A DNA stretch of 34,591 bases from Desulfovibrionaceae bacterium (lineage in GTDB: Bacteria; Desulfobacterota; Desulfovibrionia; Desulfovibrionales; Desulfovibrionaceae), in assembly GCA_031082225.1 (NCBI GenBank), contig JAVHLG010000041.1:1-34591 (forward strand), written 5' to 3'. Under the pieces are notes generated by a model. That model had not been told where the DNA came from and made no database searches. It saw only the letters and a program-made list of their open reading frames with translations. Shown one piece after another: positions 1 through 25,145 of the stretch; position 1 is the stretch's first letter, and each line of letters starts with the position of its first letter. Made by a program: the position numbers and the translations under genes.

Positions 1-57
1 CAAAAAGGGGTTCCCCTCCCGATTCCCCTTCTCCACTCCCCCCCAAAAGGAGCGCGT

Positions 58-633
58 ATGAAACTCTGGGCAGGAATTCTGGCGATCGTGTTGTTATCGG
101 GCTGCGGCTACAACGAGATGCAAAAAAACGACGAGGCCGTGGGCGCGGCCTGGGGCAATGTGCAGTCGGCGTTGCAGCGGCGCATGGACCTGATCCCCAA
201 TCTGGTGGAGACGGTAAAGGGCTACGCGGCCCATGAGAAGGACACCTTGCAGGCCGTGGTGGACGCCAGGGCCAAGGCCACACAGATGAAGCTCTCCGTG
301 GACGCCTTGTCCGACGCCCATGCCGTGGAAAGTTTCGTCAAGGCCCAGTCGGAGATGTCGTCGGCCCTGACGCGGCTTTTGGCCGTGGTGGAAAACTATC
401 CGGACCTCAAGGCGAGCCAGAATTTCCTGGATCTGCAGCACCAGTTGGAGGGCACGGAGAACCGCATCAACGTGGCCCGGGAGCGCTTCAACGAGGCCGT
501 GCAGGCGTATAACACATCGATTCGGACCTTCCCGAATTCGCTGACGAATTCCATGCTGCTGCATCTTGCGCCCAAGGAATACTTCAAGGCCGAGGAAGCG
601 GCGGCCACGCCCCCCAAGGTGAAGTTCAACTAA
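58..633 (+). CDS. LemA family lipoprotein
   Basis: 191-aa protein of the LemA family, a membrane-tethered helical-bundle family of uncertain role. The N-terminus is a short lipoprotein signal with lipobox LLSGC, so Cys16 is the likely lipidated residue. The family signature follows directly: [19 protein letters not shown], then [19 protein letters not shown] (residues ~24-62), and near residue 120 a conserved stretch with [14 protein letters not shown]. The length is typical (about 190 aa). The ATG at 58 has a strong AAAAGGAG ribosome site. The TPM-domain gene starts 15 nt after the stop; lemA-TPM pairing is common in bacteria and supports one operon. Family assignment is firm; cellular function is not established from sequence. 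Confidence 0.93.
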
Positions 634-648
634 GCGCCGGAGGCTGAC

Positions 649-1512
649 ATGAAAGGCATGCTGCACGCGTCGCGTCTCGCCGCCCTGCTTGTGGTGATGG
701 GCATGGTGCTGGCGGCCGGTTCGGCCTGGTCGCTGGACGTCCCGCCGCTTCGGGGCCGTGTCAACGACCTGGCCGGGATCCTGTCCCCGGACACGGTCAA
801 ACGTCTGGAGAGCGCCCTGGCGGCCTTCGAGGCCTCGGACTCGACCCAGGTGGTGGTTCTGACCGTGCCGTCCCTTGAGGGCGACACCATCGAGGGCTTT
901 TCCATAAAGACCGCCCAGAAGTGGGGCATCGGCCAGAAGGGCAAGGACAACGGGGCGCTTGTGGTGGTCTCCAAGGGCGACCGGGAGGTGCGCATCGAGG
1001 TCGGGCGTGGCCTGGAGGGACGCCTGACGGACGCCCTGAGCGGCCGGATCATCGACCATGTGATCGTTCCGGAGTTCAAGAAGGGCGATTTCAATGCGGG
1101 CGTGGAACAGGGCGTAACGAAGATCATGGAGGCGGTGCGCGGGGAATATACGGGCGACGGGGCGTCCGGCGGCTCCTCCGAGATGGACGACGAGACGTCG
1201 TATCTGCTTTTCGGGTCCATGATCTGCCTGGTGCTCATGTCCATCCTGCGGTTTTTGCCTGCCTTTGTCCGGGCCGGGCTTGGCGGCGCAGGCATGGGGG
1301 TGCTGGCCTTTGCGGTCGCGACCGGGATCGGCATGATCGTGTTGATGATTCTGGTGGGGATGATCCTGGGTGTTGTTGCGCCGTTTCTCTTTCGGGGCGG
1401 CCGTGGCGGCCTGGGTGGCGGCGGCGGTTTTTCGGGAGGTGGAGGTGGCGGCGGCGGTTTTTCCGGCGGCGGCGGGTCGTTCAGCGGCGGCGGTTCATCG
1501 GGCAAGTGGTGA
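649..1512 (+). CDS. TPM-domain (YgcG-like) membrane-anchored protein
   Basis: 287-aa protein with a cleavable signal peptide (hydrophobic run to about residue 28, AGSAWS). A TPM domain follows (about residues 35-165), with typical features: GRVNDLAGILSPDTVKRLE, VVVLTVPSLEGDTIEGFS, and a WGIGQKGKDNGALVVVSKGDREVRIE motif split over two strands. Two hydrophobic segments lie at about 185-205 and 215-245. The tail is a low-complexity Gly/Ser run (GGGGGFSGGG repeats), characteristic of this family. GGAGG lies 6 nt before the chosen ATG; an in-frame ATG three codons later is less well placed. It sits right behind lemA, the usual partner. TPM domains have been linked to photosystem repair or phosphatase activity in other organisms, but no role can be assigned here. 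Confidence 0.9.
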   Translation: MKGMLHASRLAALLVVMGMVLAAGSAWSLDVPPLRGRVNDLAGILSPDTVKRLESALAAFEASDSTQVVVLTVPSLEGDTIEGFSIKTAQKWGIGQKGKDNGALVVVSKGDREVRIEVGRGLEGRLTDALSGRIIDHVIVPEFKKGDFNAGVEQGVTKIMEAVRGEYTGDGASGGSSEMDDETSYLLFGSMICLVLMSILRFLPAFVRAGLGGAGMGVLAFAVATGIGMIVLMILVGMILGVVAPFLFRGGRGGLGGGGGFSGGGGGGGGFSGGGGSFSGGGSSGKW

Positions 1513-1689
1513 TCCACCCGCCGGGCATGGCGACTGCCATGGGGGCTCTCACGCTCCCGTGCCCGGCCGCGCTGGCGGCACATGGCGACACGGACGGGCA
1601 CGGACGGGCACGACAGGGTTGTCTTTGGGACCGAAGTGTGAAAAGGTCCGGCCTTTCGGTGCCCGCGTCTATTTTATGGAGGAGCGTCA

Positions 1690-1980
1690 ATGCTTGCGCT
1701 TGGAACGGCTTTTTTCTGGCTGGCCCTGTACCTGGCTGCTTTTTTTCTGTATTATCGCTATTATTTCCGTCCCAGGCTGTATCTGCTCCTGCTCGACGAG
1801 GAACCCTACCTGGAGCATTACCTGTCCAGGCTGCCGCACATGAAAAATCGCCAGGGCGACCGCCAGGGCATGGTGGAATTCCTCATGGACAAGCGCGGCA
1901 CGTTTATCCGCGAAAACCGCATTTTTCTGGTGGCCGCCACCATCCTGCTGCTTCTGGGCCTGGCCTTTTCCGCCAGTTGA
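1690..1980 (+). CDS. Small two-TM membrane protein, unknown function
   Basis: 96-aa protein with an N-terminal transmembrane helix (about residues 4-22), an aromatic/basic stretch (YYRYYFRPRLY), a charged middle with DEEPYLEHYLSRLPHMKNR, and a second helix at the C-terminus (about 78-95). GGAGG sits 7 nt upstream of the ATG, so translation is well supported. It is 177 nt downstream of the TPM gene on the same strand and could share its transcript. No family recognised. The 177-nt gap holds only a short tandem GGACGGGCAC repeat (near 1594-1615). Confidence 0.7.
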   Translation: MLALGTAFFWLALYLAAFFLYYRYYFRPRLYLLLLDEEPYLEHYLSRLPHMKNRQGDRQGMVEFLMDKRGTFIRENRIFLVAATILLLLGLAFSAS

Positions 1981-2126
1981 ACCCGTTTCCCCCGCAATCC
2001 CGGGATATTCCGGGCGGCGCGCCAAAGAGGACCGGGGCCGACAACGGTCCGGGCCCGGCAGGGGGCGGCGCCCGGTTTTTCCCCGTACGGCCCCTCCGGG
2101 CCGCCGCATGGGGCTGACGCCCGCCG

Positions 2127-2304
2127 CTCTCTCTTGGGTATTCCGAGCTTTTTGATCCGAGAATCCATGACGGCGGCGTGCGGTCTTGTTCCGTACAGCC
2201 CTTGCGAACCGTCGCGTGGGGCGGCCCCCGCCGCTATCTCTTGGGTATTCCGAGTTTTTTGATCCGCGAATCAAGGGCGGCGGCGTGCGGTGCGGCCCCC
2301 GCCG
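2127..2304 (-). repeat. Two degenerate copies of the sigma-54 regulator 3' end
   Basis: Downstream of the regulator stop codon the last ~42 bp of its coding sequence recur twice, at 2234-2275 and 2127-2168. Each copy would encode DSRIKKLGIPKR, against DSRIKKLGIRKR in the gene. Copies are offset by 71 and 107 bp. The spacers after copies 2 and 3 are also related (both contain a TGTACGG or CGTACGG core and end GCCGCCG), so the repeat unit is about 107 bp with a shortened first spacer. The whole gap 1981-2304 carries no other gene; the left part (1981-2126) is GC-rich and probably the tail of the last unit. Confidence 0.85.
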
Positions 2305-3864
2305 CTATCTCTTGCGTATTCCGAGCTTTTTGATCCGCGAATCAAAGGTGGACCGGTTGACCCCGGCCCGGGCTGCGGCCTGGGTGATGTTCCATTTGTA
2401 CTTGTCCAGAAGCGCCAGCACGTAGGCGCGCTCCAGTTCCTCCCAGGTCTGGCCGCACAAATCCGCAGAAGGACCGGGGCTGCCGCCATGACCGGCCTCG
2501 GCCGGGGGCGTGCGGCCCGGCGCGGCCGGTGGGCCTGAATCCGTCTGCGCGGCGGGCGGGGGGGCAAGGATGGTGGCGGGCAGGTCGGCCTCGTCGATGG
2601 TGTCGCCGTGCAGGGTGGTCAGCAGATAGCGCACCAGGTTTTCCATCTCCCGGATATTGCCCTTCCAGGTATGCTCGGTAAACCGCCGCAGGGCCCTTGG
2701 AGTGAGCTTTTTCGGGGCGATGCCCAGGCGCTCGCCGTCGCGGCGCAAAAAATAGTTCAAAAGCAGCCCGATGTCCTCGCGGCGTTCGCGAAGGGGCGGT
2801 ATGGCCAGGGGCAGGACGTTTAAGCGATAGAACAGATCCTCGCGAAAGGTTCCGGCGGCGATGGCCTGGCGCAGATCCTTGTTGGTGGCCGAGATGATGC
2901 GCACGTCCACCTGTTTGCAGCCGGTCCCGCCCAGGGGCTTGATCTCGTTTTGCTGGATGACGCGCAGGATGCGGGCCTGCAGCGGCAGGGCCATGTCCCC
3001 GATCTCGTCCAGAAAGACCGTGCCGCCCGAGGCGGCCTCGAAAAGGCCGGTCTTGTCCTTGTCCGCCCCGGTGAAGGCCCCTTTGCGGTATCCGAACAGT
3101 TCGCTCTCAAGCAGGGTGTCGGGGATGGCGCTGACGTTTTGCACCAGAAAGGGGCCGTTGCGCCGGGCGCTCAGACGGTGGAGCTCCCGGGCCGCCAGTT
3201 CCTTGCCCGTTCCGGATTCGCCGGTGATGAGCACCGGGAAATCCGTCTTGGCGTAGTCGCCAAGCGACTTCTGCATGGCCAAGAAGGCGTCGCTTTGGCC
3301 GATGAGGGTCTCGGCATGCAGGTCCGCGATCATGCGGCGCAGTTTTTCGTTCTCGGCCCGCTTGTCGGCGAAAGCCAGGGCGTTGCCCAGGGCGATGGCC
3401 CCGATGGCCACCAGATCCTCCATCAGTTCCAGATAGTCCTTGTGCAGGTTGAGTCGGCTGCCGCCGTGGGAGGTGTCGATGATCTCCACCGCGCCGTAGA
3501 CCCGGCCGTCGCGCAGGATCAGGGGATAGCACAGGATGATGGTGCTTTTGACGTCGAGCCCGACCTCCACCTCGCGGAAATGACGCTTGTCCTTGTAGGC
3601 CTCGGCAATGGTCATGCGGCCGTTTTCGATGACCCAGCCCACGATGCTTTGCGCGCTCTTGGGGATGCAGTAGCCCGCGATGTCCGCACTTTGCGACCCC
3701 ACGGCCGCGATGCACCGGTAGCCCTCGCCGTCGGCGATCCACAGGGAGCCGCGTTCGACGTTCTGCATTTCGAGCAGGGCCGAGAGGAATTTCTGCTGCA
3801 AACGACTGGTGTCGAGCTCCTCGAACAGGGCCTTGTGGAATTCGAGCGCCTGGGATTTCATCAT
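2305..3864 (-). CDS. Sigma-54-dependent activator (GAF-AAA+-Fis HTH)
   Basis: 519-aa enhancer-binding protein. Residues ~20-165 form a GAF sensor domain; 190-430 a sigma-54 AAA+ ATPase with Walker A GESGTGKE (215-222), the sigma-54 contact loop GAFTGA (262-267) and Walker B GTVFLDEIGD (281-290); 431-470 a Pro/Gly-rich linker; 475-519 a Fis-type HTH (WNITQAAARAGVNRSTFDSR). All key motifs are intact, so it should hydrolyse ATP and open sigma-54 promoters. There is no receiver domain, so the signal is probably a small molecule bound by GAF, or a partner protein. I chose the MM start at 3864 because the GAF homology begins there; the frame stays open upstream but that part is Arg/Pro-rich and looks non-coding. 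The target genes are not evident; no clear -24/-12 promoter was found nearby. Confidence 0.93.
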   Translation of the reverse strand: MMKSQALEFHKALFEELDTSRLQQKFLSALLEMQNVERGSLWIADGEGYRCIAAVGSQSADIAGYCIPKSAQSIVGWVIENGRMTIAEAYKDKRHFREVEVGLDVKSTIILCYPLILRDGRVYGAVEIIDTSHGGSRLNLHKDYLELMEDLVAIGAIALGNALAFADKRAENEKLRRMIADLHAETLIGQSDAFLAMQKSLGDYAKTDFPVLITGESGTGKELAARELHRLSARRNGPFLVQNVSAIPDTLLESELFGYRKGAFTGADKDKTGLFEAASGGTVFLDEIGDMALPLQARILRVIQQNEIKPLGGTGCKQVDVRIISATNKDLRQAIAAGTFREDLFYRLNVLPLAIPPLRERREDIGLLLNYFLRRDGERLGIAPKKLTPRALRRFTEHTWKGNIREMENLVRYLLTTLHGDTIDEADLPATILAPPPAAQTDSGPPAAPGRTPPAEAGHGGSPGPSADLCGQTWEELERAYVLALLDKYKWNITQAAARAGVNRSTFDSRIKKLGIRKR

Positions 3865-4157
3865 CCGCCCTTGGTCTTGGTGTTCCTGTGGCGGCGCGGC
3901 GGAAACCGGCCTTTGCGGGCACCGTATGTTCCCGCATGGAAAATGACAAGGGGGAATGGACGCTTGAAGCCTCCCGGGGGCATCGACGCCGACCCCCGAG
4001 GAACCGGTGCACGGGATGGCGCGGCGCGTGCGGGCTGGCCTGCATGTCCAGGGCCCTGGCGCTGCCCACGGCGCATGCCGTACAACATGCGGCCTCGCGC
4101 CAGACGCCTGCCGATGGATTTCGCCCTCCGGCAACGGTCTGGCGCGGGCCGGGATCG
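3865..4157. other. Intergenic gap between rsgA and the sigma-54 regulator
   Basis: 293 bp without a convincing gene. It must hold the end of the rsgA transcript and the promoter of the regulator, but no clear -35/-10 pair was recognised. The only distinct structure is the long inverted repeat at 4096-4146. Confidence 0.6.
4096..4146 (-). terminator. Long hairpin just downstream of rsgA
   Basis: Perfect 10-bp arms CGCGCCAGAC (4096-4105) and GTCTGGCGCG (4137-4146), with a nested TGCCG/CGGCA pair inside, begin 11 nt after the rsgA stop. There is no T-tract, so it is not a textbook intrinsic terminator; it may act as a 3'-end stabiliser or a Rho-linked end. Confidence 0.45.
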
Positions 4158-5213
4158 TCAATCGTCTTGCCGTTTTTTTACCGATTTCAGGAATCGACCG
4201 AAGTTTCTGTCTTTTTTCCGTTTCTCCAGGGACGACATCCCGTGGTATTCCGATTCCTTTTTGAGTTTGAGATAGTTCGCATAGCGGTCGTGATGCAGTT
4301 CCCCGTTTTCCAGTGCGACCCTGACGGCGCACCCTGGCTCGCCCTGGTGGCTGCAGTCCGCATAACGGCAATGCGCTGAAAGCGCGGCGATCTCTTCGAA
4401 TCCTCCGTCGAATCCCTGGTCGACGCCAAGGACCCCAAGCTCCCGCATGCCGGGCGTGTCGATCACCATGGCCCCGTTGCCGAGCACGGCGAGTTGTCGG
4501 CGCGTGGTCGTATGGATGCCCTCTCCCGTGCTGCTGACGGCCTGGGTGGCGAAGGCCTCCCGGCCCACGAGCCGGTTGAGGAGCGTCGTCTTGCCCACGC
4601 CCGAGGAACCGAGCAGGCAGTATGTCCTTCCCGGCGAGAGCAGCCGGGCAAGCGCGTCACACCCGCCTCCGGTGACCATGCTGCAGGCGATCACGCTGCA
4701 GCGGGTGACCGTGCGCAGTATGTCCAGCTTGTGCTCCAAGTCCTCCCGGGTGATCAAATCCGTCTTGGTGAGAACGACGACCGGTTCGACGCCTCCGTCC
4801 CCGGCCATGGCCAGGTACCGTTCCAAACGATTCGGGTTGAAGTCGAAATGACAGGATTGGACAAGAAACGCGGTGTCCACGTTGGCGGCTATCATCTGGA
4901 AGTCAAGGCCTTGGCCCGGGCGCTTCCGCCGCAGGAAGGTCTTTCGCGGAAGCACCTGATGGATGATGGCCGCAGCGTCCTCAGCGGACACGTCCGCCGC
5001 CACAAAGTCGCCGACACAGGGCAGGTCGGCGGCGCTTGCAATCCGGTAGGCCAGCCTCCCTGACAGTTCGGCCGGGACGTCCCGTGCGGCGTCCCGTATG
5101 CGGTAGGAACCGCGGGCCACAGCGGATATGCGGGCGACGCCGCACGCATCCAGGCCGCGCTGCGCGGCCTGCGCGGCAAACCATTGGTCGAAGCCCAACG
5201 CACCAGGCATCAT
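4158..5213 (-). CDS. rsgA: Ribosome small subunit biogenesis GTPase RsgA
   Basis: 351-aa circularly permuted GTPase that helps mature the 30S ribosomal subunit. An N-terminal OB-fold region (about 25-95) precedes the permuted G domain: G4 TKTD (149-152) comes before G1 GSSGVGKT (202-209) and G3 DTPG (252-255). A zinc site follows with Cys282, Cys287, His289 and Cys295 (CRYADCSHQGEPGC). Length and motif order match the family. GAGG lies 8 nt upstream of the first ATG. The start overlaps the TGA of a truncated upstream reading frame (TCATGATG), so translation may be coupled to it. Confidence 0.96.
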   Translation of the reverse strand: MMPGALGFDQWFAAQAAQRGLDACGVARISAVARGSYRIRDAARDVPAELSGRLAYRIASAADLPCVGDFVAADVSAEDAAAIIHQVLPRKTFLRRKRPGQGLDFQMIAANVDTAFLVQSCHFDFNPNRLERYLAMAGDGGVEPVVVLTKTDLITREDLEHKLDILRTVTRCSVIACSMVTGGGCDALARLLSPGRTYCLLGSSGVGKTTLLNRLVGREAFATQAVSSTGEGIHTTTRRQLAVLGNGAMVIDTPGMRELGVLGVDQGFDGGFEEIAALSAHCRYADCSHQGEPGCAVRVALENGELHHDRYANYLKLKKESEYHGMSSLEKRKKDRNFGRFLKSVKKRQDD

Positions 5214-5371
5214 GACAGACCTCGCGAAGGGCGTCCCGCCGACAGGCGGTCCACGATATGAGGCCCCACGGGTCCGCTCCCGGGCGCGTGCGTCGAATGC
5301 CCCGTGCAGGCGGCGTAGTGGATGTATGTGATGGCGAAGGCGTCATCAGGCCGTTCGTCTCTGAGCAGCAT
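5210..5371 (-). pseudogene. Truncated GNAT N-acetyltransferase remnant (5' part)
   Basis: 53-codon frame with a good ribosome site (AGGAG 8 nt before ATG). Its start, MLLRDERPDDAFAI, matches the opening strand and helix of GNAT acetyltransferases, and the later GHSTHAPG...HIVDRLSAG resembles the next conserved part of the same subfamily (typically GHP..APGTE..IVD.LRAAG). The frame then ends at a TGA that overlaps the rsgA ATG, so the acetyl-CoA-binding core is missing. I read it as the 5' third of a GNAT gene cut off next to rsgA. It may persist as a short coupled leader frame. The GNAT resemblance is by eye only. Confidence 0.55.
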
Positions 5372-5931
5372 TGCAGCACTCCTTGCGTGTGACGGTTTCA
5401 CATGGCCGGGCATATGGCCAGACGGGCGCATGGCTGCCCCATGCGCGGCATATGGCCCATGATTGCCTGAAGAAACGACAAGGAAGGGTTGCCGGACGAA
5501 AACGTGAAAAGACCGGCCCGGGGAGGCCGGGCAGGATCGGCAGGAGTAAACGGATGTTCCCGCAGCGCAAAAGGCCTCCTTCATGCCAGGAGGCTCAGGC
5601 CTTGGGGGCGCTTACCGGCCGAGGCTTTCGCCAGCAACCAGCGCGACAGGATCCAGTGTGGTGGTGCTCAAAAAATCCTCTTTAGGAAAGGCAGTTACGT
5701 GGGCAATCCCTACATCCGGGTTGGCGCGGCGTCAAGATGGCGGGCATCGGCCGGTCCGGACCACGGCGGGAGCCGCCGCCCCGGACGCCGGGACGCTCTT
5801 TTCCCTGAGGCAATTGCCGCCAGGCCCCCTGCTTGCTATCCTCTCCGGAAGGCCGCCGGACAAGTCCGGGAGTTGCTGACCAAGGCGCAACCCGGCCACG
5901 CCACGAAGAAACCTTGCCGCAGGAGCACCCC
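5372..5931. other. Gene-free gap between GNAT remnant and binding protein
   Basis: 560 bp in which no reading frame has credible composition or a ribosome site. Visible structures are an 8-bp-arm inverted repeat at 5426-5446 (GCGCATGG/CCATGCGC) flanked by two GGCATATGGCC motifs, and the hairpin at 5574-5594. It should contain divergent promoters for rsgA (left) and the binding-protein gene (right), but I could not identify them. No riboswitch recognised. Confidence 0.5.
5566..5594 (-). terminator. Possible leader hairpin upstream of GNAT remnant/rsgA
   Basis: On the minus strand GCCTCCT and AGGAGGC form a perfect 7-bp stem with a 7-nt loop, followed by CTTTTG. No minus-strand gene lies upstream of it, so if functional it would be a leader attenuator for the rsgA transcript rather than a gene-end terminator. 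Short T-run; weak evidence. Confidence 0.25.
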
Positions 5932-7077
5932 ATGACCCGTCTTCTGTCCCTGATGTCCGTCCTGGCCGCGCTGGTCGTCCTGACCCTCCCCGCCGTGGCC
6001 GCGCCGCTTCGGATCGCGGCCCTGTACAACACGACCGGCGGCATGAGCTCCATCGACGCCCCGGGCCTGCGCGGGGCCACACTGGCCGCCAAGCACATCA
6101 ACGCCCAGGGCGGCGTCGGCGGCAGGCCCATCGAGCTTGTGGTCTTCGACACCGCCACCGACCCGCAGGCCGCGGCCGACGCGGCCGAAAAGGCCCTGGC
6201 CGGGGGCGTGGTCGCGGGCATCGGCTATGGCGACACGAATTTCGTCCTGGCCGCCGCGCCGCGTTTCATGGAAAAAGGCGTGCCCTTCGTCACCTCCGGG
6301 GCCACGCACCCGGAACTGCCCAAACGGCTGGGCGCGAATTTTTTCATGGTCCCCTTCGGTGACGACGACCAGGCCCACGCCATCGCCGACTACGCCCGGG
6401 AGGAACTGGGCGTGAAGCGGGTCGCCGTGTGGACCGACGCCTCCATGGACTTCACCACGGCGCTTTCCCGCTATTTTGAGAAGCGTTTCCGGGCCGGGGG
6501 CGGCGAGGTGGTCGTGACGGACGAATTCAAGGCCGGGGACCGGGACTTTTCAGCCCTGGTCGGGCGTCTGCAAAAGGCCGATCCGAGGCCCGAGGCGGTG
6601 TTCGTGGCCGCCGTTCCGGACGAGGCCGGGGTCATCGTGCAGCAGATTCGCCAGGCCGGTCTGACGCTGCCCATCCTGTCCGGCGACGGCTTCGACACCG
6701 AGCTTGTGACCGAGGTTCCAGGGCCGACATTGGCCCATGGCGTCTATTTCTCCACCCACACCTTTCGCGGCGACGCCCGGCCCAGGGTGCAGGAGTTTAT
6801 CGCCGACTACCGGGCCGAATACGGCGTGGCGCCGGAAAGCGCCTTTGCCGCCCTGGGGTACGACGCGGTGATGCTTGTGGCCGACGCGTATCGCCGGGCG
6901 GGCAAGGGCGACGCCCGGACCTTGCAGCAGGCCCTGCGCGGCACGCGGCATTTCGAGGGCGTGACCGGAAGGATCGATTACAGCCGGGCGAGCGGCGTGC
7001 CGAAAAAGGCCGTGTCGATCATCGGGGTGACGGGCGGGGCGTACACGGTGGAAAAGGTGTGGCGGCCGGGGAAATAG
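5932..7077 (+). CDS. Branched-chain amino-acid-type ABC substrate-binding protein
   Basis: 381-aa periplasmic binding protein of the LivJ/LivK (type I fold) class. A Sec signal peptide covers residues ~1-24 (LLSLMSVLAALVVLTLPAVAA). Family features follow: PLRIAALYNTTGGMSSID, GLRGATLAAKHINAQGGVGGR, VAGIGYGDTNFVLAAAP and, late, FAALGYDAVMLVADAYRRAG. AGGAG lies 6 nt before the chosen ATG; an upstream in-frame start would put the signal peptide inside the protein. No permease or ATPase genes accompany it, so it either feeds a transporter encoded elsewhere or serves as a sensor. A decayed copy of its 3' end lies about 1 kb downstream. The ligand cannot be told from sequence. Confidence 0.92.
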   Translation: MTRLLSLMSVLAALVVLTLPAVAAPLRIAALYNTTGGMSSIDAPGLRGATLAAKHINAQGGVGGRPIELVVFDTATDPQAAADAAEKALAGGVVAGIGYGDTNFVLAAAPRFMEKGVPFVTSGATHPELPKRLGANFFMVPFGDDDQAHAIADYAREELGVKRVAVWTDASMDFTTALSRYFEKRFRAGGGEVVVTDEFKAGDRDFSALVGRLQKADPRPEAVFVAAVPDEAGVIVQQIRQAGLTLPILSGDGFDTELVTEVPGPTLAHGVYFSTHTFRGDARPRVQEFIADYRAEYGVAPESAFAALGYDAVMLVADAYRRAGKGDARTLQQALRGTRHFEGVTGRIDYSRASGVPKKAVSIIGVTGGAYTVEKVWRPGK

Positions 7078-7137
7078 TCTCCCGGTTGCGGCGCGTGTCA
7101 GGCAATAAGACGTTCCGTGCGGAAAGGACGGCTGCCT

Positions 7138-7920
7138 ATGCTCAATTACCTGCTCACATTCGGCGCGATTGCCTGCATAAGCATTGCGATGCCCACCATT
7201 TATCTGGCCCTGAAAAAACGTGTCGCCAGGATCACCGAAGAAAAACCCGCATGCAGCGTCAGCGGAACCATCTTTTCCCTTTTCGGCTCGATCTATGCTT
7301 TTTTCATCGGATTTTGCATCGTGACCCTGTGGAGCACGTTCAACACCACCAAGGCGAACCTCGCCGAAGAGGCCAACGCCCTGCTCGTCGCCAGCTACAT
7401 CTCCCGAAATTTTAACGACTCCAGCGGGTTTCGCAATGCCGTGGCGGCATACCTGGAGAGCGTCATGCAGGACGAGTGGCCGTCCATGGACAAGGAAAAC
7501 GCCATGTCCGCCATTTCGAAGCAGCATTTCGACACGGTCTGGGATGCATTCCGCGCCCTGAAGCCGGGAGACAAGGAAGACAATTCTCTCTATGTCGAAC
7601 TCGGCACGACGCTGATGCTGTCTTCGAAACTGCGCGCGGCGCGGGCCTTGTCCCTGTCCGGGAATCTGTATCCGCCGGTGTGGATCATCATGATCATCGG
7701 GTTTGTCGGGATCTGCCTGGAACTGAATGCTACCGGCGCAAAAAACGGCATGCGGAAATACGTCGTGGAGAGCATCGCCATTTTCACCATCCTGTCGTGC
7801 ATGTATTTCATCTACGACATCAACACCCCCTTTTCGGGGTCGGTGAACATTTCGCCTCAGGCGTTCGTTTCGGCCCTGGAGCGGATAGAGGAGTCTTCGC
7901 CGTTGGCCGGTTGGAATTGA
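7138..7920 (+). CDS. DUF4239-like membrane protein
   Basis: 260-aa protein with four predicted membrane helices: two N-terminal (about residues 2-22 and 44-66) and two late (about 180-200 and 210-230). Between them lies a soluble helical part with EEANALLVASYISRNF and a Tyr/Glu/Trp-Pro motif. The C-terminal D(I)NTPFSGSVNISPQAF closely fits the signature of DUF4239 (bestrophin-like) proteins. The ATG at 7138 has AAAGGA 8-9 nt upstream; a GTG seven codons earlier is possible but lacks a site. It is flanked on both sides by homologous binding-protein 3' ends, implying insertion or duplication at this spot. No function is known for the family that I can apply here. Confidence 0.75.
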   Translation: MLNYLLTFGAIACISIAMPTIYLALKKRVARITEEKPACSVSGTIFSLFGSIYAFFIGFCIVTLWSTFNTTKANLAEEANALLVASYISRNFNDSSGFRNAVAAYLESVMQDEWPSMDKENAMSAISKQHFDTVWDAFRALKPGDKEDNSLYVELGTTLMLSSKLRAARALSLSGNLYPPVWIIMIIGFVGICLELNATGAKNGMRKYVVESIAIFTILSCMYFIYDINTPFSGSVNISPQAFVSALERIEESSPLAGWN

Positions 7921-7926
7921 TTGTAA

Positions 7927-8072
7927 GCATATAGCAGAGAGACAGCACGCGGAACACAGCATATCGGAGGAGTGCCTGGAAAGATCGATGACCGCCGCAC
8001 AAGCGGCCTGCCGAAAAAAGCCGTGCCGGTCATTGGGTGATGGGCGGGGCGTATAAGGATGAAGAAATCTGG
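7927..8072 (+). pseudogene. Decayed 3' fragment of a second substrate-binding protein gene
   Basis: Begins right after the DUF4239 stop. Translated from 7945 it reads ARGTQHIGGVPGK then IDDRRTSGLPKKAVPVIG, and after a one-base loss near 8035 VMGGAYKDEEIW. This aligns without other gaps to residues LRGTRHFEGVTGR, IDYSRASGVPKKAVSIIG and VTGGAYTVEKVW at the end of the binding protein encoded at 5932-7077. Only the last ~48 codons remain, with a frameshift and no start. The coding similarity is directly visible in both DNA and protein. Confidence 0.85.
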
Positions 8073-8096
8073 ATTTCTAAATATTACTTTTTTTCA

Positions 8097-8126
8097 TTGA
8101 CAAAACCAGCAAACTGATTTTATATT
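8097..8126 (+). promoter_or_regulatory. Near-consensus sigma-70 promoter for the AT-rich gene
   Basis: TTGACA (8097-8102), 17-bp spacer, TTATAT (8120-8125), or TATATT with an 18-bp spacer. It lies 43 nt upstream of the start codon in an AT-rich stretch and is the clearest promoter match in the window. Confidence 0.65.
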
Positions 8127-8168
8127 TTATTTATACATGTAAAAATATATTTGTGAAGGAAATTGTCG

Positions 8169-8753
8169 ATGGATACTGCGAATTTAATTAGCCTGGGAAT
8201 ATTTATCGCTACGCTTGGGGCGGCCATTGTCGCAGCGTTTTATACTGCTTTTACGTACAAGATGCTCGCAACCATGAAAAACCAATACATAGACTCAATA
8301 AAACCAAAAATACACATAAAAGTTCAACCTGAACATAGGTCCACAATGTTCTATCTCATTATAAAAAATATCGGAACAGGAATTGCTAAAGATATATCTT
8401 TTTCACTTGACAAAGATTTTTATCTTCTTTCAAAAAAAGAGGAGAAAAAAAATTTAAGAAATTACAATCTATTCAAGAACACTATTTCATATATGCCGCC
8501 TGGGGATGAATATGCATTTTATCTCGACTCCGCACGGAATATTTCGGATGGTGAAAAAATTGAAAGTGACAACGTAAACCCAAGTGTATTTGCGATAACA
8601 TGTAAATATGCATATGCCATGCAAGAATATGCGGAGACATATACGATTGATCTTAGAAACTATTTCAAAACAACAGAACCCCCTAATCCACTTCTTACTG
8701 AGCTAAAAATACTCAACGGAAACATTGAAAAAATAAAATCTATAAGCTCATAG
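8169..8753 (+). CDS. AT-rich orphan protein with N-terminal TM anchor
   Basis: 194-aa protein of unknown family. One hydrophobic helix (about residues 6-30, LISLGIFIATLGAAIVAAFYTAF) is followed by a soluble domain rich in beta-type segments, with FYLIIKNIGTGIAKDISFSL, a pattern seen in small beta-sandwich domains of membrane-anchored accessory proteins. The C-terminus is helical (LLTELKILNGNIEKIKSI). AAGGA sits 8 nt before the ATG. Its base composition and codon use (many AAA, ATA, TTT and TAT codons) contrast sharply with every neighbour, which is strong evidence of recent transfer. It has its own promoter and a strong terminator and thus forms a one-gene cassette. Similar anchored proteins occur near defence genes, but nothing here proves such a role. 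Confidence 0.8.
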   Translation: MDTANLISLGIFIATLGAAIVAAFYTAFTYKMLATMKNQYIDSIKPKIHIKVQPEHRSTMFYLIIKNIGTGIAKDISFSLDKDFYLLSKKEEKKNLRNYNLFKNTISYMPPGDEYAFYLDSARNISDGEKIESDNVNPSVFAITCKYAYAMQEYAETYTIDLRNYFKTTEPPNPLLTELKILNGNIEKIKSISS

Positions 8754-8786
8754 ACTATGTGAAATGAACCCATTTAAAAATGGCGA

Positions 8787-8826
8787 AGCCCCCCGGACGC
8801 GATCACGTCCGGGGGGCTGCGTTTTT
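8787..8826. terminator. Strong bidirectional intrinsic terminator
   Basis: A perfect 13-bp stem AGCCCCCCGGACG (8787-8799) / CGTCCGGGGGGCT (8806-8818) with a 6-nt loop is followed by GCGTTTTT on the plus strand and, on the minus strand, by TCGCCATTTTT. It should end both the AT-rich gene and the convergent RND pump operon. Confidence 0.9.
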
Positions 8827-8845
8827 CGTCAGACCGTTTGGAAGA

Positions 8846-11800
8846 TTATCCCGCCGTCACGGCCTCGCCCTTCGCCTTGGCCTTTCTCCCGAAAAGCCGC
8901 CCCAGCCACGACTGGAACCGATCCAGGTAGATGTAATAGACCGGCGTGAAATACAGCGTCAAAAGCTGCGACACCACAAGCCCGCCCACCACCGCCAGGC
9001 CCAGGGGGCGTCTGGCCTCGGCCCCGGCCCCCATGCCCAGGGCAATGGGCAGCGTGCCCATGAGCGCCGCCATGGTGGTCATCATGATCGGCCGAAACCG
9101 GACCAATGCGCCGTCGACGATGGCCTGGGCCGGGTCGAGCTTCCCGGCCCGCTGGGCCTCCAGCGCAAAATCGATCATCATGATGGCGTTTTTCTTGACG
9201 ATGCCAATCAGCATGATGATGCCCACGAACCCGTAGATATTCAAATCCTGGCCGAACACGTAGAGCGTGAGAAGCGCCCCAACGCCCGCCGACGGCAGCC
9301 CCGACAGGATGGTCAGGGGATGGATGAAGCTCTCGTACAGGATGCCTAAAACGATGTAGATGACCACGATGGCCATGGCCAGAAGCAGCCACAACCCCTG
9401 AAACGAACTCTGGAAGGCTTGGGCCTCGCCCTGAAACGCGGTGCTGATGCCGTCAGGCAATGTCTGGCGGGCCATGTCCTCCACCGCCGTCACCGCGTCG
9501 CCCAAAGACACCCCGGGACGCAGGTTAAAAGACAAGGTCACGGACGGCAACTGACCGGAATGGTTGACGGAAAGCGGCCCGGCCGCAACCGACCACCTGG
9601 CCAGGGAATCCATGGTCACCAGCTTGCCGTCCTTGGAGCGCACATACAGCAGCGCCAACGCATCGGGATTGGCCTGATATTTCGGATCGAGCTCCACCAT
9701 GACCTTGTAGGTGCTGTTGGAGGCGTAGATGGTGGACACCTCGCGGTTGCCGTAGGCCGTGGCCAGGGCGTCCTCGATCTGGTAGGCGGAGATGCCCAGC
9801 GAGGAGGCCTTGTCGCGGTCGATGGTCACGTTGAGCTGGGGGTTTTTGATCTCCAGGTCGCTGTTGACGTCCTGAAGCAGGGGCAACCCGCGCAGCCGTT
9901 CCTCCAGGACCGAGCCCTCGCGGTAGAGTTCCTCGATGTTGGGGCTTTGCAGGGTGAGCTGATATTGGCCCTTGGTGGCCAGGCCGCCCACCTTGATGGG
10001 CGGCGGGTTCTGCAGAAACACCCGCACCCCCGGCACCTGGGACAGCTTGCCGCGCAGACGCTGCATGACCTCGTTGGCGTGGTCCGGCCGCTCATCCCGG
10101 GGTTTGAGACGGATCATGAGCCGTCCGGTATTGCCGGCGGAGTTGGGACCACCGGCCCCCACCACGGACATGAAGGCCTGCACGGAGGGATCCTTCGAAA
10201 CCACCTCCATGAGCCTTTTCTGGTGTCCGACCATGGCCTCGATGGCGATGCCCTGCTCCCCCTCCACCACAGCCTGGAGGCCGCCGTTGTCCTCGCTGGG
10301 CACGAAGCCCTTGGGGACGATGCGAAACAGGTAGACCGAGGCCCCCACCAGCAGAAAGGAGAAGAGCAGCACCGCCAGTTTGTGGTTGATGGTGCCCCGC
10401 AGGGTCTTTTCGTAGAGGCGGCGCATGCCCTCGAATACGTTTTCCATGAACCGGTAGAACCGGCCATGCTTTTGTCCCTGGACATGGGGCTTGAGCATGA
10501 GCTTGCACAGCATGGGGGTCAGGGTCAGGGACACGAATCCCGAAATCAGGATGGCCGAGGAAATGGTCACGGCAAATTCGTGGAACAGCCGCCCCACCAC
10601 GCCGCCCATGAACAACACCGGCAGAAACACCGCCGCAAGCGAGATGGTCATGGACACGATGGTGAAAAAGATCTCCCTGGAGCCGTCCATGGCCGCCTGA
10701 AGCGGGGTCTTGCCCTGCTCCATGTGGCGCACGATGTTTTCCAGCATGACGATGGCGTCGTCCACCACGAACCCCACGGCCAGGGTCAGGGCCATGAGCG
10801 AGATGTTGTTTAAGCTGAACCCCATCTGGTACATGACCGCAAAGGTTCCCACCACGGACATGGGCAGGGCCAAGCTTGGGATAATCGTGGCCGTGAGGTT
10901 GCGCAGGAACAGGAAGATGACCATGATGACCAGGCCCACGGTGAGCATCAGGGTGAACTTCACCTCGCCCACGGACTCCTTGATGGAGTCCGAGCGGTCG
11001 AACAGGATGTCCAGGTTGACCGCCGCCGGGAGCTGGGAGCGGAACTCGGGCAACAGATCCTTGACGGCCTGGGCCACGCCCACGGTATTGGTGCCGGGCT
11101 GACGCTGGATGGCCAGGACCATGGCCGGGGTGAAGTTGTACCAGTTGGCCCGGCGCGGCTGCTCCACGCTGTCAAAGACCCTGGCCACCTCGTTTAAGCG
11201 CACGGGCGCGCCGTTGCGCCAGGCCACCACCAGGGGGCCATAGGCCTCGGCGTTCATGAGCTTGCCGCTGGACATCACGGTGTATTCGCGCTGGGGACCG
11301 GCCACGGTGCCCACGGGCAGATTCACGTTGCCACTTTTGATGGCCGCGTTCACCTCGTCCACCCCGATCCCCCGCGAGGCCAGGGCCTCGGGGTCGAGCT
11401 GGATGCGCACGGCGTATTTGCGCGACCCGTAGACCATGACCTGGGCCACGCCGTTGACCATGGAGATGCGCTGGGCCATGAGCGTCTCGGCGTATTCGTT
11501 GACGTCGGACAGCCGCAGCGTGGGCGAGGAGATGGCCAGATAGAGGATGGGCTGGTCCGCCGGGTTGACCTTGCGGTAGGTGGGCGGCGTGGTCATGTCC
11601 GAGGGCAGTTGCCGCATGGCGGCGGTGATGGCCGCCTGCACGTCCTGGGCTGCGGCGTCGATGTCGCGCTCCAGCGAGAACTGCAGGGTGATGCGTGTAG
11701 CCCCCAGGCTGTTGGCCGAAGTCATGGAGTCGATGCCCGCGATGGTGGAGAATTCCTTTTCCAGGGGCGTGGCCACGGCCGAGGCCATGGTCTCGGGGTT

Positions 11801-11962
11801 GGCCCCGGCCAGGTTGGCCGAGACCTGGATGGTGGGGAAGTCCACGTTGGGAAGATCGCTGACCGGCAGCCGGTTGTAGGCCATGATCCCGAACAGCAAC
11901 AGCCCCAGCATGATCAGGGTGGTGGTCACCGGGCGGTTGATGAAAAGGGCCGAGGGATTCAT
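8846..11962 (-). CDS. RND (HAE1/MdtB-type) multidrug efflux pump
   Basis: 1038-aa inner-membrane proton-driven exporter of the resistance-nodulation-division superfamily. It starts with the typical INRPVTTTLIMLGLLLFG first helix; the porter motif MSTxNxxG counterpart appears as SMTSANSLGATRITLQF, and the proton-relay helix carries GFVVDDAIVMLENI with the paired aspartates. The late helices include VGIIMLIGIVKKNAIMMIDFA and RPIMMTTMAALMGTLPIAL, both family hallmarks. Length matches. The ATG overlaps the TGA of the adaptor gene (ATGA), so the two are translationally coupled. The sequence is closer in style to the MdtB/MdtC branch than to AcrB, so xenobiotics are likelier than metals, but substrate cannot be read from sequence. 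No outer-membrane factor gene follows. Confidence 0.96.
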   Translation of the reverse strand: MNPSALFINRPVTTTLIMLGLLLFGIMAYNRLPVSDLPNVDFPTIQVSANLAGANPETMASAVATPLEKEFSTIAGIDSMTSANSLGATRITLQFSLERDIDAAAQDVQAAITAAMRQLPSDMTTPPTYRKVNPADQPILYLAISSPTLRLSDVNEYAETLMAQRISMVNGVAQVMVYGSRKYAVRIQLDPEALASRGIGVDEVNAAIKSGNVNLPVGTVAGPQREYTVMSSGKLMNAEAYGPLVVAWRNGAPVRLNEVARVFDSVEQPRRANWYNFTPAMVLAIQRQPGTNTVGVAQAVKDLLPEFRSQLPAAVNLDILFDRSDSIKESVGEVKFTLMLTVGLVIMVIFLFLRNLTATIIPSLALPMSVVGTFAVMYQMGFSLNNISLMALTLAVGFVVDDAIVMLENIVRHMEQGKTPLQAAMDGSREIFFTIVSMTISLAAVFLPVLFMGGVVGRLFHEFAVTISSAILISGFVSLTLTPMLCKLMLKPHVQGQKHGRFYRFMENVFEGMRRLYEKTLRGTINHKLAVLLFSFLLVGASVYLFRIVPKGFVPSEDNGGLQAVVEGEQGIAIEAMVGHQKRLMEVVSKDPSVQAFMSVVGAGGPNSAGNTGRLMIRLKPRDERPDHANEVMQRLRGKLSQVPGVRVFLQNPPPIKVGGLATKGQYQLTLQSPNIEELYREGSVLEERLRGLPLLQDVNSDLEIKNPQLNVTIDRDKASSLGISAYQIEDALATAYGNREVSTIYASNSTYKVMVELDPKYQANPDALALLYVRSKDGKLVTMDSLARWSVAAGPLSVNHSGQLPSVTLSFNLRPGVSLGDAVTAVEDMARQTLPDGISTAFQGEAQAFQSSFQGLWLLLAMAIVVIYIVLGILYESFIHPLTILSGLPSAGVGALLTLYVFGQDLNIYGFVGIIMLIGIVKKNAIMMIDFALEAQRAGKLDPAQAIVDGALVRFRPIMMTTMAALMGTLPIALGMGAGAEARRPLGLAVVGGLVVSQLLTLYFTPVYYIYLDRFQSWLGRLFGRKAKAKGEAVTAG

Positions 11963-13197
11963 TTGGAACCTTCCTTGCCGGGCGTCTCAGCGGCCTTGGC
12001 CGCGCCCGGCTCCGGCGCTTTGTTTCTTCCGGCCTCCCCGCCGGAAGCGCCCTTGGCCTCCACCGCAGCACCCGGCTTCAGACGCAGTTGCCCGTCCGTG
12101 ACCACGGTCTCGCCGTCGGCCACGCCCTCGTCAAGCACGGTCTCTCCGGCCACAACGCCGTAGACCTTGATGTCGCGCGACTCCACGGTATTGTCGGGTT
12201 TGACCACATACAGGTATGGGCCGTGCAGCCCCTCCTGCACGGCGGGCGTGGGCACCACCACCCCCTGGCGCTGGTCGAGGGCAACCGTCACCCGTACGAA
12301 CTGTCCAGGCCACAGGGCGGCGTCGGCGTTGGTGAAGCTGGCCTTGAGCCGGATGGACCCGGTGGTGGTGTCCACGGTATTGTTTAAGGCCGAAAGCACC
12401 CCGGTCTCCGTCGTCGACTCCCCGTCCACCTGGGCCGTGACCGTGACCGGCCCGGTCTTCATGCGGGCCATGATCTCGGGCAGATGGCGTTCGGGAACGG
12501 AAAACGAGACGTAGATGGGCCGGATACGGTTGATGACCACCAGCACGCGGTCGTCGTTGGCCTTGATGACGTTGCCCTTGTGCAAGAGGATCGCCCCCAC
12601 CCGGCCGTCAATGGGAGAGCGCACATGGGCGTATTCCAGGTCGAGCCTGGCCCTGTCCCGCTCCGCCTCGCTGACCTTGATGGTGCCGCGCAGGGTCCGG
12701 GCCTGGGCCAGGGTATGGTCGTAGGACTCCTTGGCGATGACGTCTTTTTCCTTGAGCCGGGCGTAGCGCTCCAGATCCTCCTCGGCCTTTTGCAACAGGG
12801 CGTGGTCCCGCTCGATCTTGGCCTCGGCCTCGGTCACGGCCAAGGCAAAGGGGCGCGGATCGATGAGAAACAATTTGTCGCCCTCGGCCACGTCCTGGCC
12901 GTCGGTGACATACTGCTCCACGATCAGCCCCCCCACCTGGGTCTTGACCGCCACCGAGGCCATGGATTCCACGTTGCCCACGGCCTGGATGGTCACGGGA
13001 ACGGTTTTTTTCACGGCCGTGGCCACGGCCACCGGGACCGGCCGGGCGGCCTTCGGCCCGGCGGCCTTGTCCGCCTCCCCGTTACAGGACCAGGCGGCGA
13101 TCACCAGCGTCACCATGAGCACGCCCCGCAGGATGGGGGACCGAAACCGCAACGCGCCGCATCTTAGGGCGCGCGTTTTGTTGGCGCGTGTCGACAA
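11959..13197 (-). CDS. RND periplasmic adaptor (membrane fusion) lipoprotein
   Basis: 412-aa adaptor that bridges the RND pump to an outer-membrane channel. The basic n-region and hydrophobic GVLMVTLVIAAWSC end in a Cys, suggesting a lipoprotein (or a membrane anchor; the lipobox is imperfect). Then come the barrel/lipoyl part (TVPVTIQAVGNVESMASVAVKTQ in two pieces), a coiled-coil hairpin (about residues 100-170, AEAKIERDHALLQKAEEDLERYA), the second lipoyl half (YAHVRSPIDGRVGAI) and a beta-barrel (PGQFVRVTVALDQRQGVVVP). I chose the TTG at 13197 because GGAG lies 7 nt upstream and it keeps the signal intact; longer frames would overlap tetR. An Ala/Pro/Gly-rich charged tail ends the protein. 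It is 25 nt after tetR and overlaps the pump gene. Confidence 0.92.
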   Translation of the reverse strand: MSTRANKTRALRCGALRFRSPILRGVLMVTLVIAAWSCNGEADKAAGPKAARPVPVAVATAVKKTVPVTIQAVGNVESMASVAVKTQVGGLIVEQYVTDGQDVAEGDKLFLIDPRPFALAVTEAEAKIERDHALLQKAEEDLERYARLKEKDVIAKESYDHTLAQARTLRGTIKVSEAERDRARLDLEYAHVRSPIDGRVGAILLHKGNVIKANDDRVLVVINRIRPIYVSFSVPERHLPEIMARMKTGPVTVTAQVDGESTTETGVLSALNNTVDTTTGSIRLKASFTNADAALWPGQFVRVTVALDQRQGVVVPTPAVQEGLHGPYLYVVKPDNTVESRDIKVYGVVAGETVLDEGVADGETVVTDGQLRLKPGAAVEAKGASGGEAGRNKAPEPGAAKAAETPGKEGSK

Positions 13198-13222
13198 GGG
13201 ATATCTCCGATGGGGTTTGGTG

Positions 13223-13927
13223 TTACTGCCGCACGTGGCTGTCGGGCCGGGACGGGATGGCGTGGGCCGTTTCGGCCCCAAGCCCCTCGTCCTGCCGGTC
13301 GTGGTAATGGGCCATGGCCGCCACGGAAAACCGGACGATATGCTCGGCCAGTCGGGTGATGCCGGAATCGTCGTAGGTCAGGTCCGGAAACAACCGGACC
13401 AGGATGGGCCGGGCCACGGCGTAGTTGCGGCACTGGCCCACGATGCTCTGCACGCACAGGCCGACAAGGGCCGCGTCGGCCCCGGGGCCCAGGATGTCGC
13501 TTACGATCTCGCGCAGTTTCTCCATCCGGGGCAGGATGGAACGGTCCACGAACCGCCCCAGCATGGGCGTGGGCTCGGCCAGTTCCCGGGCCATGAGCGC
13601 GCCGTGCCAGGCATTTTCCCCCTTGGACAGCATCCGCAGCAGCAAGGCCCGGACGTAGGCCGACAGGCGTTCCCGGGGGGTGCTGGCCCCGCTTAAGCCC
13701 ATGTCCACGGGAAAACGGCTCAGGGCATCCTCATGGGCATGGCGCAGCACGGCCTCGTAAAGCCGCTCCTTGTTGCCGAAATGGTAGTGCACGGCGGCCA
13801 CGTTGGCCTTGGCCTTGCGGCAGATATCCCGGATGGTGGCCCCCTGGTAGCCCTTCCTGGAAAAGATGTCGCCTGCCGCGTGCAGGAGCCGAACCCTCGT
13901 GTCCTCGCCGTTTCCGCTGTCGGCCAT
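13223..13927 (-). CDS. TetR-family regulator (CerR-like)
   Basis: 234-aa repressor-type regulator. The N-terminal TetR HTH spans about residues 8-55, with LLHAAGDIFSRKGYQGATI, DICRKAKANVAAVHYHFGNKE and LYEAVL. The C-terminal ligand domain with WHGALMARELAEPTPM and a later QCRNYAVARPI is like the CerR/YbiH group, which often controls efflux genes. GGAGG stands 7 nt before the chosen ATG; an upstream TTG overlaps the operator and lacks a site. It is the first gene of the adaptor-pump operon and carries a tandem palindrome immediately upstream, so autoregulated control of the pump is the straightforward inference. Confidence 0.94.
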   Translation of the reverse strand: MADSGNGEDTRVRLLHAAGDIFSRKGYQGATIRDICRKAKANVAAVHYHFGNKERLYEAVLRHAHEDALSRFPVDMGLSGASTPRERLSAYVRALLLRMLSKGENAWHGALMARELAEPTPMLGRFVDRSILPRMEKLREIVSDILGPGADAALVGLCVQSIVGQCRNYAVARPILVRLFPDLTYDDSGITRLAEHIVRFSVAAMAHYHDRQDEGLGAETAHAIPSRPDSHVRQ

Positions 13928-24299: not shown

Positions 24300-24489
24300 G
24301 ACCATTTCGGGGGTTTCGGCAGGCCGCACAGGCGCGCCGCCGTTTTTTGAAAAACGGGAAAACCGCTCACTTGGGGCGTGGCAGGTAATTTCCTTATACG
24401 CATGGGACGGAGAAGGCAAGGACGGGCGACGACGGCCACGGCCGCCATGGGCATCCCTGGCCCTGGGCGGCCCAGGCGCGCCCACGGCG

Positions 24490-24536
24490 CGAAAACAAAA
24501 CGCCCCCGGCCAGGGGACTGTCCCATGGCCGGGGGC
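24490..24536 (-). terminator. Terminator hairpin (a) after the second DUF1640 gene
   Basis: A 16-bp stem with one mismatch (24502-24517 and 24521-24536) and a 3-nt loop is followed on the minus strand by GTTTTGTTTTC. This is the one member of the three-hairpin set that has a proper T-rich tail, and it ends the heat-shock/DUF1640 gene string. Confidence 0.8.
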
Positions 24537-24605
24537 GATATCTGGATTGAGCCAAGACGACCGTGCGAAAGCCGATGCGGACGCCTACACGCAACGGCTT
24601 GCCGA

Positions 24606-24881
24606 CTACAGAAGCTTCACCAACGCGGCAATCAGCGCCGCCTGGGCCACCAGCATCCCCGCCACCCACTTGATGATCTCGGTTCTGGTCTCGGCCAGTC
24701 TGGTTTCCACATCGGCCCGCAACAATGCGATGTCTTTCTGGATAAGGGCAATGTCATGCTTGGAGGCCGCTTCCTTCTGAATCGCCTCGTCCCGGGCCTC
24801 GAACAGTTTGGCGATAACCTCCGCAGCCTCGGGGCCAAGGGTTTTTTCGAGCTTTTTGGCATCGTCGAAAAGAAGCGTCAT
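24606..24881 (-). CDS. DUF1640-like coiled-coil/TM protein (B)
   Basis: 91-aa protein with a helical, charged body and a C-terminal membrane helix. The N-terminus (FDDAKKLEKTLGPEAAEVIA) differs from its neighbour, but the body is heptad-patterned (IALIQKDIALLRADVETRLAE) and the last 19 residues are the same as in protein A (WVAGMLVAQAALIAALVKL). AGGAGA lies 6 nt before the ATG. This coiled coil plus C-terminal anchor is the layout of DUF1640/CCDC90 proteins, whose mitochondrial members include MCUR1. The classic N-terminal motif seen in A is missing. Likely a domain-swapped paralogue of the preceding gene. Function unknown. Confidence 0.8.
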   Translation of the reverse strand: MTLLFDDAKKLEKTLGPEAAEVIAKLFEARDEAIQKEAASKHDIALIQKDIALLRADVETRLAETRTEIIKWVAGMLVAQAALIAALVKLL

Positions 24882-24962
24882 GAAAATCTCCTTGTCCTGA
24901 CCGCCATTGGTCCACTGTTTATATTCCCCGGCCAGGGAAGGCAAGCCTGCGCCCAACGTCAA

Positions 24963-24997
24963 GCCCCCGGCCATGGGACTATCCCATGACCGGGGGC
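24963..24997 (-). repeat. Hairpin (b) between the two DUF1640 genes
   Basis: A 16-bp stem with one mismatch (24963-24978 and 24982-24997), almost identical to hairpins (a) and (c). On the minus strand it is followed by TTGACGTTGG rather than a T-run. It lies 72 nt after the stop of protein A. Confidence 0.85.
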
Positions 24998-25145
24998 GAT
25001 GTCTTTCAGATTGAGCCAAGTCGATCGTACGAAAGCCAATGCGGACGCCTTCACGCGACGGCTTGCCGACTACAGAAGCTTCACCAACGCGGCGATCAAC
25101 GCCGCCTGAGCCACCAGCATCCCCGCCACCCACTTCAGGATGTCG
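24963..25145 (-). repeat. ~180-bp duplication covering a DUF1640 3' end and downstream hairpin
   Basis: The segment 24963-25145 is close to 24502-24680 base for base (roughly nine in ten positions by eye). It covers the last ~25 codons, the ~65-nt 3' untranslated stretch and the hairpin. The 5' halves of the two genes are unrelated, so only the tail plus 3' UTR was duplicated or homogenised. Confidence 0.85.

Follow-up and report, generated by a model that had tools for sequence, protein, structure and literature searches.

An AT-rich single-gene stretch next to acrB in a Desulfovibrionaceae genome and the patchy family of its predicted membrane-anchored product

Genes and signals at the locus

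The window analysed here is a stretch of 34,591 nucleotides (contig JAVHLG010000041.1, assembly GCA_031082225.1) from a Desulfovibrionaceae bacterium. Between a bestrophin-like gene and an acrB-type transporter gene lies an AT-rich stretch with a single gene, the product of which is referred to as P0001. The locus comprises the following features:

7138-7920, plus strand: bestrophin-like gene (PF14023), left conserved flank of the slot (Pfam match, synteny in the genus)
7948-8072, plus strand: decayed partial copy, from the 3' end, of the livK-type gene lying upstream (self-comparison)
8073-8785, plus strand: AT-rich, foreign stretch with one gene (composition; dissimilar slots in genomes G002 and G001 of the genus)
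8097-8126, plus strand: sigma-70-type promoter-like site TTGACA-N18-TATATT (11 of 12 consensus bases)
8155-8159, plus strand: ribosome-binding-site-like GAAGG (read off the sequence)
8169-8753, plus strand: P0001 gene, an ORF of 194 aa with an N-terminal transmembrane (TM) helix at about residues 6-24, a helical linker, a β-rich domain at about 48-161 and a C-terminal tail
8787-8818, no strand assigned: 13-pair terminator hairpin of acrB, which is convergent, outside the acquired stretch (folding and conservation beside acrB)
8846-11962, minus strand: acrB-type RND transporter gene, right conserved flank (profile match, synteny in the genus)

A preliminary description of the window had singled out a one-gene AT-rich island with a base composition and codon use unlike those of its neighbours, and both observations hold. 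The stretch runs from 8073 to about 8785. The ORF has a GC content of 0.340 and a GC3 of 0.313, against a GC3 of 0.709-0.895 in the 21 other coding sequences measured, and the 500-base intervals 8001-8500 and 8251-8750 have GC contents of 0.342 and 0.322 in a window that lies mostly at 0.6-0.7. No tRNA gene was found in the window.

The gene had also been credited with its own promoter, TTGACA-N17-TTATAT. The strong TTGACA site at 8097 is retained here, with a corrected spacing, as N18-TATATT (11/12) is the better fit. When the 96 bp upstream of the gene were shuffled 20,000 times by mononucleotides, 0.67% of the shuffles had a site with at least 11 of 12 consensus bases. Looser 9/12 sites occurred at chance level in the region 6900-9000 (3 found, 2.5 expected). 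The GAAGG motif is followed after 9 bases by the ATG of P0001.

The 13-pair hairpin previously assigned to the island as its terminator is real, is followed by TTTTT and folds with z = -5.1 (8760-8835). Terminator-like sites in 6900-9000 numbered 2 with 2.6 expected, and the one at 8787-8818 is far stronger than the other. Window 8782-8818 matches L027 7599-7635 at 89%, and window 8786-8827 matches L029 6919-6958 (G001) at 88%. Both other genomes of the genus keep the hairpin beside acrB, and we therefore assign it to the vertically inherited acrB rather than to the island. The P0001 gene is convergent with acrB, with this terminator between them, and the hairpin can also serve P0001 on the plus strand. 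Rfam returned only matches under the gathering score, located on or near the hairpin.

On the left, the decayed fragment consists of two pieces with a 1-bp shift, 78% identical to 6937-7026 and 76% identical to 7025-7062. By eye, it shares some bases with the livK copy of contig C86 and others with that of contig C143. The second livK-type gene, on C143, encodes a protein with 86% identity, and the bestrophin-like copy behind it runs off the end of the contig; in DNA, window 5929-7920 and L030 (G000:C143) 11201-12504 each carry the livK-type gene with the first part of the bestrophin-like gene, at about 91% identity, so that both occur twice in the genome. Upstream of livK, G002 matches C143 rather than the contig of the window. 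Since the synteny of G002 is split between the two copies, the locus has been rearranged around livK, with a breakpoint there. The decayed livK-type fragment, proposed earlier as a recombination scar, borders the insert and may or may not have had a part in the insertion. The repeats found in 5900-9000 do not bound P0001.

The slot beyond acrB within the genus

The locus was compared across three genomes of the genus, own genome included, with one genome per species. The P0001 gene was found in neither G001 nor G002 by single-sequence and profile searches. G002 has the same order of livK-type gene, bestrophin-like gene, slot, hairpin and acrB, and its flanks match window 6014-7911 and 8786-13500 at 91-92%. 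Its slot carries a 134-aa ORF on the opposite strand, to which no Pfam family was assigned, and shows no above-chance similarity to the slot studied here (best E 0.24). In G001, acrB lies far from the livK-type gene. Beyond its acrB hairpin, an HTH-cupin ORF and an O-methyltransferase ORF are found in AT-rich DNA, which again has no above-chance similarity to the slot of the window (best E 0.49). On the acrB side, the similarity of the window to each of the two genomes thus reaches no further than the hairpin (window 8782-8786).

A separate observation in G001 is that the 3' end of acrB is duplicated (L029 5442-5642) past the AT-rich HTH-cupin/O-methyltransferase insert, with 87% identity to window 8875-9082.

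We also inspected the acrB 3' flanks of nine homologues from other genera (56-69% identity). Most are not AT-rich; the exceptions are G010, with a 400-bp stretch at GC 0.37-0.53, and G003, which is AT-richer throughout. Judged from only three genomes, the position beyond the acrB terminator resembles a slot whose content varies within the genus.

Horizontal acquisition of the P0001 gene is strongly supported by these sequence comparisons, because the gene was not found in G001 or G002 and their DNA past the hairpin is unrelated to the insert. The acquisition suggested in the preliminary description also withstands the refutation proposed there, presence of the gene at the same locus with matching composition in all relatives: it was found in neither of the two genomes, the family is patchy and the nearest relative resides in a repeat-bounded integrative element (see below).

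The P0001 family and its genomic neighbourhoods

The claim that P0001 is TM-anchored is in line with the hydropathy scan, which predicts a single N-terminal TM segment followed by positive charge. In an alignment of 14 members (A5), the N-terminal hydrophobic stretch has more K/R after than before it in 12/14; the two exceptions are L058, where another hydrophobic stretch occurs, and L059, for which a segment further along was selected by the scan. According to the positive-inside rule, the positive side of a TM segment faces the cytoplasm. Given this rule and the K/R excess after the TM segment, the β-rich domain is predicted to lie in the cytoplasm. Four residues (P46, N67, G69 and A73, P0001 numbering) are invariant in A5, and P0001 keeps all of them. 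The low-confidence single-sequence AlphaFold2 model of P0001 (pLDDT 51.5) has a helix at 3-44, with strands between 48 and 161, and the best Foldseek matches include Ig-like appendage domains (TMq ~0.3). Given this confidence and TMq, the model is no more than suggestive of a β-sandwich fold. P0001 is probably an N-out/C-in inner-membrane protein with a predicted cytoplasmic β-sandwich. A profile search against solved structures returned three coiled-coil designs on the C-terminal tail, which were rejected.

P0001 had been described as an orphan, which did not survive wider searching. A single-sequence search matched 4/59 genomes (own and three distant relatives). Profile A1, built from these four sequences, matched 18/348 genomes of the class in 13/59 genera, own and the three other profile rows being among the 18; the weakest three matches have E-values of 2.4e-7 to 1.1e-5, and the match in G307 contains one stop. 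The nearest relative, encoded by G331 of another genus, is 49% identical (95/192 residues). A profile of P0001 and this relative matched 3/395 genomes of the phylum (own, G488 and G699). Profile A3, made from restriction-linked members, likewise matched 3/395 phylum genomes (G699, G542 and G613) and did not pick up P0001 at E ≤ 1e-10; the subfamilies therefore lie far apart. P0001 shares the features of the A1 family, namely the N-terminal TM segment, the β-rich domain and P46/N67/G69/A73, and is itself a row of A1; independent support for its membership comes from the single-sequence search and the 49% identical relative.

The phage family phrog_11802, of unknown function, matches residues 7-128 of P0001 (E 1.2e-6), covering positions 13-129 of the 230 profile positions only. 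Of 59 genomes searched it matches 5, that of P0001 among them, and of 14 control genomes only E. coli. The same family matches a protein of the SPbeta-type phage Goe14 (E 2.6e-43), encoded by the third gene before the arbitrium gene aimR, whereas P0001 is encoded by a lone chromosomal gene. YOMG_N (PF24049) scored 17.3 bits on P0001, below the Pfam gathering cut-off of 27. Phage records yielded two hits for P0001 at E ≤ 1, Goe14 for the relative from G023 and none for the relative from G331. No confirmed relative was found in genome contigs and viral contigs queried with P0001 alone or with P0001 and the G331 relative, nor in viral contigs queried with the G023 relative, the Goe14 protein or the A3 alignment; plasmids gave no match to P0001. 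Neither PADLOC-DB 2.0.0 (E ≤ 1) nor NCBIfam matched P0001 or three relatives examined alongside it (0/4 each). A limited literature search found no description of the P0001 family, of phrog_11802 or of the YomG N-terminal domain, and no paper bringing together at least four of DrmD, type III restriction, UvrD, transmembrane and defense island.

One of the two phage records matched by P0001, L034 (MT838374.1), has a P0001-like ORF, one of the 14 rows of A5, that precedes a Schlafen AlbA_2 gene. It was rejected as phage evidence, as a β-glucosidase-like ORF recognised by eye makes it look like a bacterial fragment.

Neighbourhoods were compared at 21 loci, comprising the 18 A1 loci (own included) and those of G488, G699 and G542; G613 was left out (1.7 kb, truncated ORF). 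Five loci were labeled as defence-linked (an immediate neighbour of the restriction, HEC-01 or Abi type), five as mobile-linked (on a recognisable or apparent mobile element) and 11, including P0001, as neither, a count that includes loci where the profile scans skipped the immediate neighbours (G023, G026, G164, G542) or covered one ORF only (G019, G293, G307, G233, G054). The defence-linked loci are:

G287: flanked by type III Mod (PADLOC E 0) and UvrD, with DrmD (E 2.1e-274) next in line
G106: gene order res, mod, relative, UvrD
G025: beside type III res (E 3.1e-21)
G488: directly after an HEC-01 pair (E 7.6e-207 and 9.5e-83)
G278: beside an AbiJ_NTD5 and DUF4145 protein

The mobile-linked loci are:

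G331: repeat-bounded element of about 16 kb at tRNA-Pro, the relative directly following a Phage_integrase ORF (tyrosine recombinase, E 1.2e-13)
G699: integron-type array, the relative being the sixth listed ORF of a same-strand array
G320: one ORF from tail-fibre/baseplate genes
G188: beside a primase/anti-restriction ORF
G172: labeled by resemblance to G188 only; its neighbours gave one DNA_methylase match

The G331 element is bounded by a 66-bp, 95% identical repeat of the 3' part of tRNA-Pro, about 16 kb away, and encodes a second integrase (Arm-DNA-bind_3 and Phage_integrase), Rha, a primase zinc ribbon, AAA_25 and a Cro/C1-type HTH ORF. At the start of the G699 array (L105 1-6000) lies an IntI4-like integrase piece (E 3e-21), and elements between its ORFs are repeated; the ORFs after the relative presumably encode toxin-antitoxin pairs, judged by their resemblance to HicAB and MazEF. 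The label conjugative-type for G188 is based on the primase/anti-restriction ORF and on an apparent resemblance of its neighbours.

Several further signals were kept outside the defence count, namely a mad2 match in G233 (PADLOC E 1.2e-11) on an ORF that Pfam identifies as a SAM methyltransferase, and HNH (E 7e-7) and DUF4365 (E 3.2e-9) in G225. Near the relative in G320 is a D12 methyltransferase ORF (PADLOC MTase_II E 3.3e-73), G054 has a TIR ORF about 5.5 kb from its relative and G542 an IS91-type transposase ORF seen by eye only. The relatives in G023 and G278 adjoin tRNA genes, and some others are lone genes beside ribonucleotide reductase, glycosyltransferase or phosphatidylserine decarboxylase. 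At 12 of the 18 loci computed (own, G699, G542 and G613 excluded), the relative has a GC content at least 0.05 lower than its surroundings. As a background control, 0/10 genes of the window gave a PADLOC match, in a small sample. Two candidate patterns were dropped: a restriction link defining the whole A3 subfamily, since the DNA examined around its more distant members in G699, G542 and G613 has no such genes, and a cassette array in G054 (L031), where no direct repeats ≥ 28 occur in 1-9000.

Two of these neighbourhoods deserve mention in their own right. The restriction clusters L056 3544-16557 (G287) and L054 5835-14449 (G106) contain type III res, mod, a predicted TM-β-sandwich protein and UvrD, and so have an unannotated membrane component; the G287 cluster continues with DrmD and a 430-aa protein. 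In L094 7542-10081 (G488), the HEC-01 pair (AAA_21 and DUF4276) is followed by the P0001 relative as a possible third gene.

Possible role of P0001 and rival explanations

The suggestion of an accessory or defence-type gene is plausible, with 5/21 loci defence-linked and 5 more mobile. P0001 itself has neither kind of neighbour; its flanking genes are livK-type, bestrophin-like and acrB. Inspection of the sequence and of the ORF list by eye revealed neither an attC site nor an integron integrase near it. Those relatives that do have defence neighbours share only 16-28% identity with P0001, and a common function is therefore not assured. The best reading of P0001 is mobile accessory cargo, for which an anti-phage function is plausible from context only. 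The reading as a whole, to which we give an even chance, is that of an acquired accessory gene whose family is spread by mobile elements and acts through membrane-tethered partner binding in protecting the cell.

Under this reading, the gene would have been inserted as one transcription unit into the variable slot directly past the acrB terminator, and its own promoter would drive its transcription. The protein's single TM helix would enter the inner membrane so that the short N-terminus faces outward and the lysine-rich side inward, which would keep the putative β-sandwich at the membrane on its cytoplasmic side. There, it may bind a partner, most likely either a phage component on its way in or a host or nuclease protein recruited to the membrane. 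Binding would protect the cell, either as a superinfection block or through a membrane-tethered adaptor. The product would belong to a family of small proteins, patchy in its distribution and anchored in the membrane by the N-terminus, that travels on mobile elements and stands beside anti-phage systems in several genomes.

Known systems offer partial parallels, of which the first two are analogies. The variable cargo near int in satellites and prophages of the P4/P2 type is a described home of anti-phage genes (PMC9122126). Similar to such cargo, the G331 relative adjoins a recombinase and its element has an Arm-DNA-bind_3 integrase, Rha and primase; unlike it, the genes scanned in G331 include no structural gene, the element is at most a candidate P4 relative and P0001 lies in no recognised element. 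PdpSau is described as a membrane-anchored abortive-infection protein of prophages in another host (PMC10127798). Its likeness to P0001, as a membrane-anchored accessory protein, is an analogy only, and PdpSau differs in host and in its position in the lysis module. In type III restriction-modification operons with UvrD (and DrmD), the G106 and G287 relatives have mod on one side and uvrD on the other, whereas P0001 lacks these neighbours and is 16% and 19% identical to the two relatives. HECs are PADLOC's Hma-embedded candidates. Several of them, HEC-06 among them, were antiviral in a 2026 study of archaeal immunity, the portion of which drawn on here does not name HEC-01 (PMC12988326).

The same neighbourhoods can be read differently. 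P0001 may serve a mobile element instead of the host, through maintenance, exclusion of like elements or entry control, and may have been left behind after loss of the element. We regard this as rather unlikely, even though a recombinase gene immediately precedes the nearest relative within its repeat-bounded element and others occur near phage tail genes, beside a primase/anti-restriction ORF or in an integron-type array. Relatives in restriction operons and as lone chromosomal genes suggest selection apart from any one element, and no element remnant was recognised around P0001 by eye in the ORF list. It is also unlikely that the acquired gene has a role other than defence, for example as membrane scaffold, in envelope stress or as partner of the adjacent efflux pump. 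Its place beside acrB and the bestrophin-like gene would suit such a role, as would the lone relatives beside metabolic genes, but P0001 is convergent with acrB with a terminator between, and a link to the pump is unlikely because neither of the other two genus members has related DNA past the acrB hairpin. That a recently arrived, functionless gene is decaying here seems highly improbable. The gene is lone, next to a decayed fragment and not found in relatives of the genus; against decay, the ORF is intact with a promoter-like site and ribosome-binding site, a 49% identical relative exists in another genus and the four residues invariant in the 14-member alignment are kept.

If the preferred reading of a protective accessory gene is true, a widely scattered family has gone unannotated and unnamed by PADLOC even inside a restriction operon, and the restriction operons, the HEC-01 neighbour and the acrB slot are testable starting points for a possible membrane-tethered part of immunity. 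If the horizontal origin alone is true, P0001 is an ordinary acquired accessory gene. A broader proposal, which we consider doubtful, is that an unnamed superfamily of β-sandwich proteins, anchored in the inner membrane and facing the cytoplasm, is a modular anti-phage component. Its members would act alone, as P0001 and the relative in the tRNA-Pro element would, and would also serve type III restriction-UvrD-DrmD operons and HEC-01 pairs as their membrane adaptor, which would tether nucleases or sensors where phage DNA enters.

Elsewhere in the window, at 24394-25342 (minus strand), short neighbouring ORFs share near-identical stretches, which points to a tandem duplication at this place; one example is the C-terminal WVAGMLVAQAALIAALVKLL, present in both 24606-25133 and 25070-25342.
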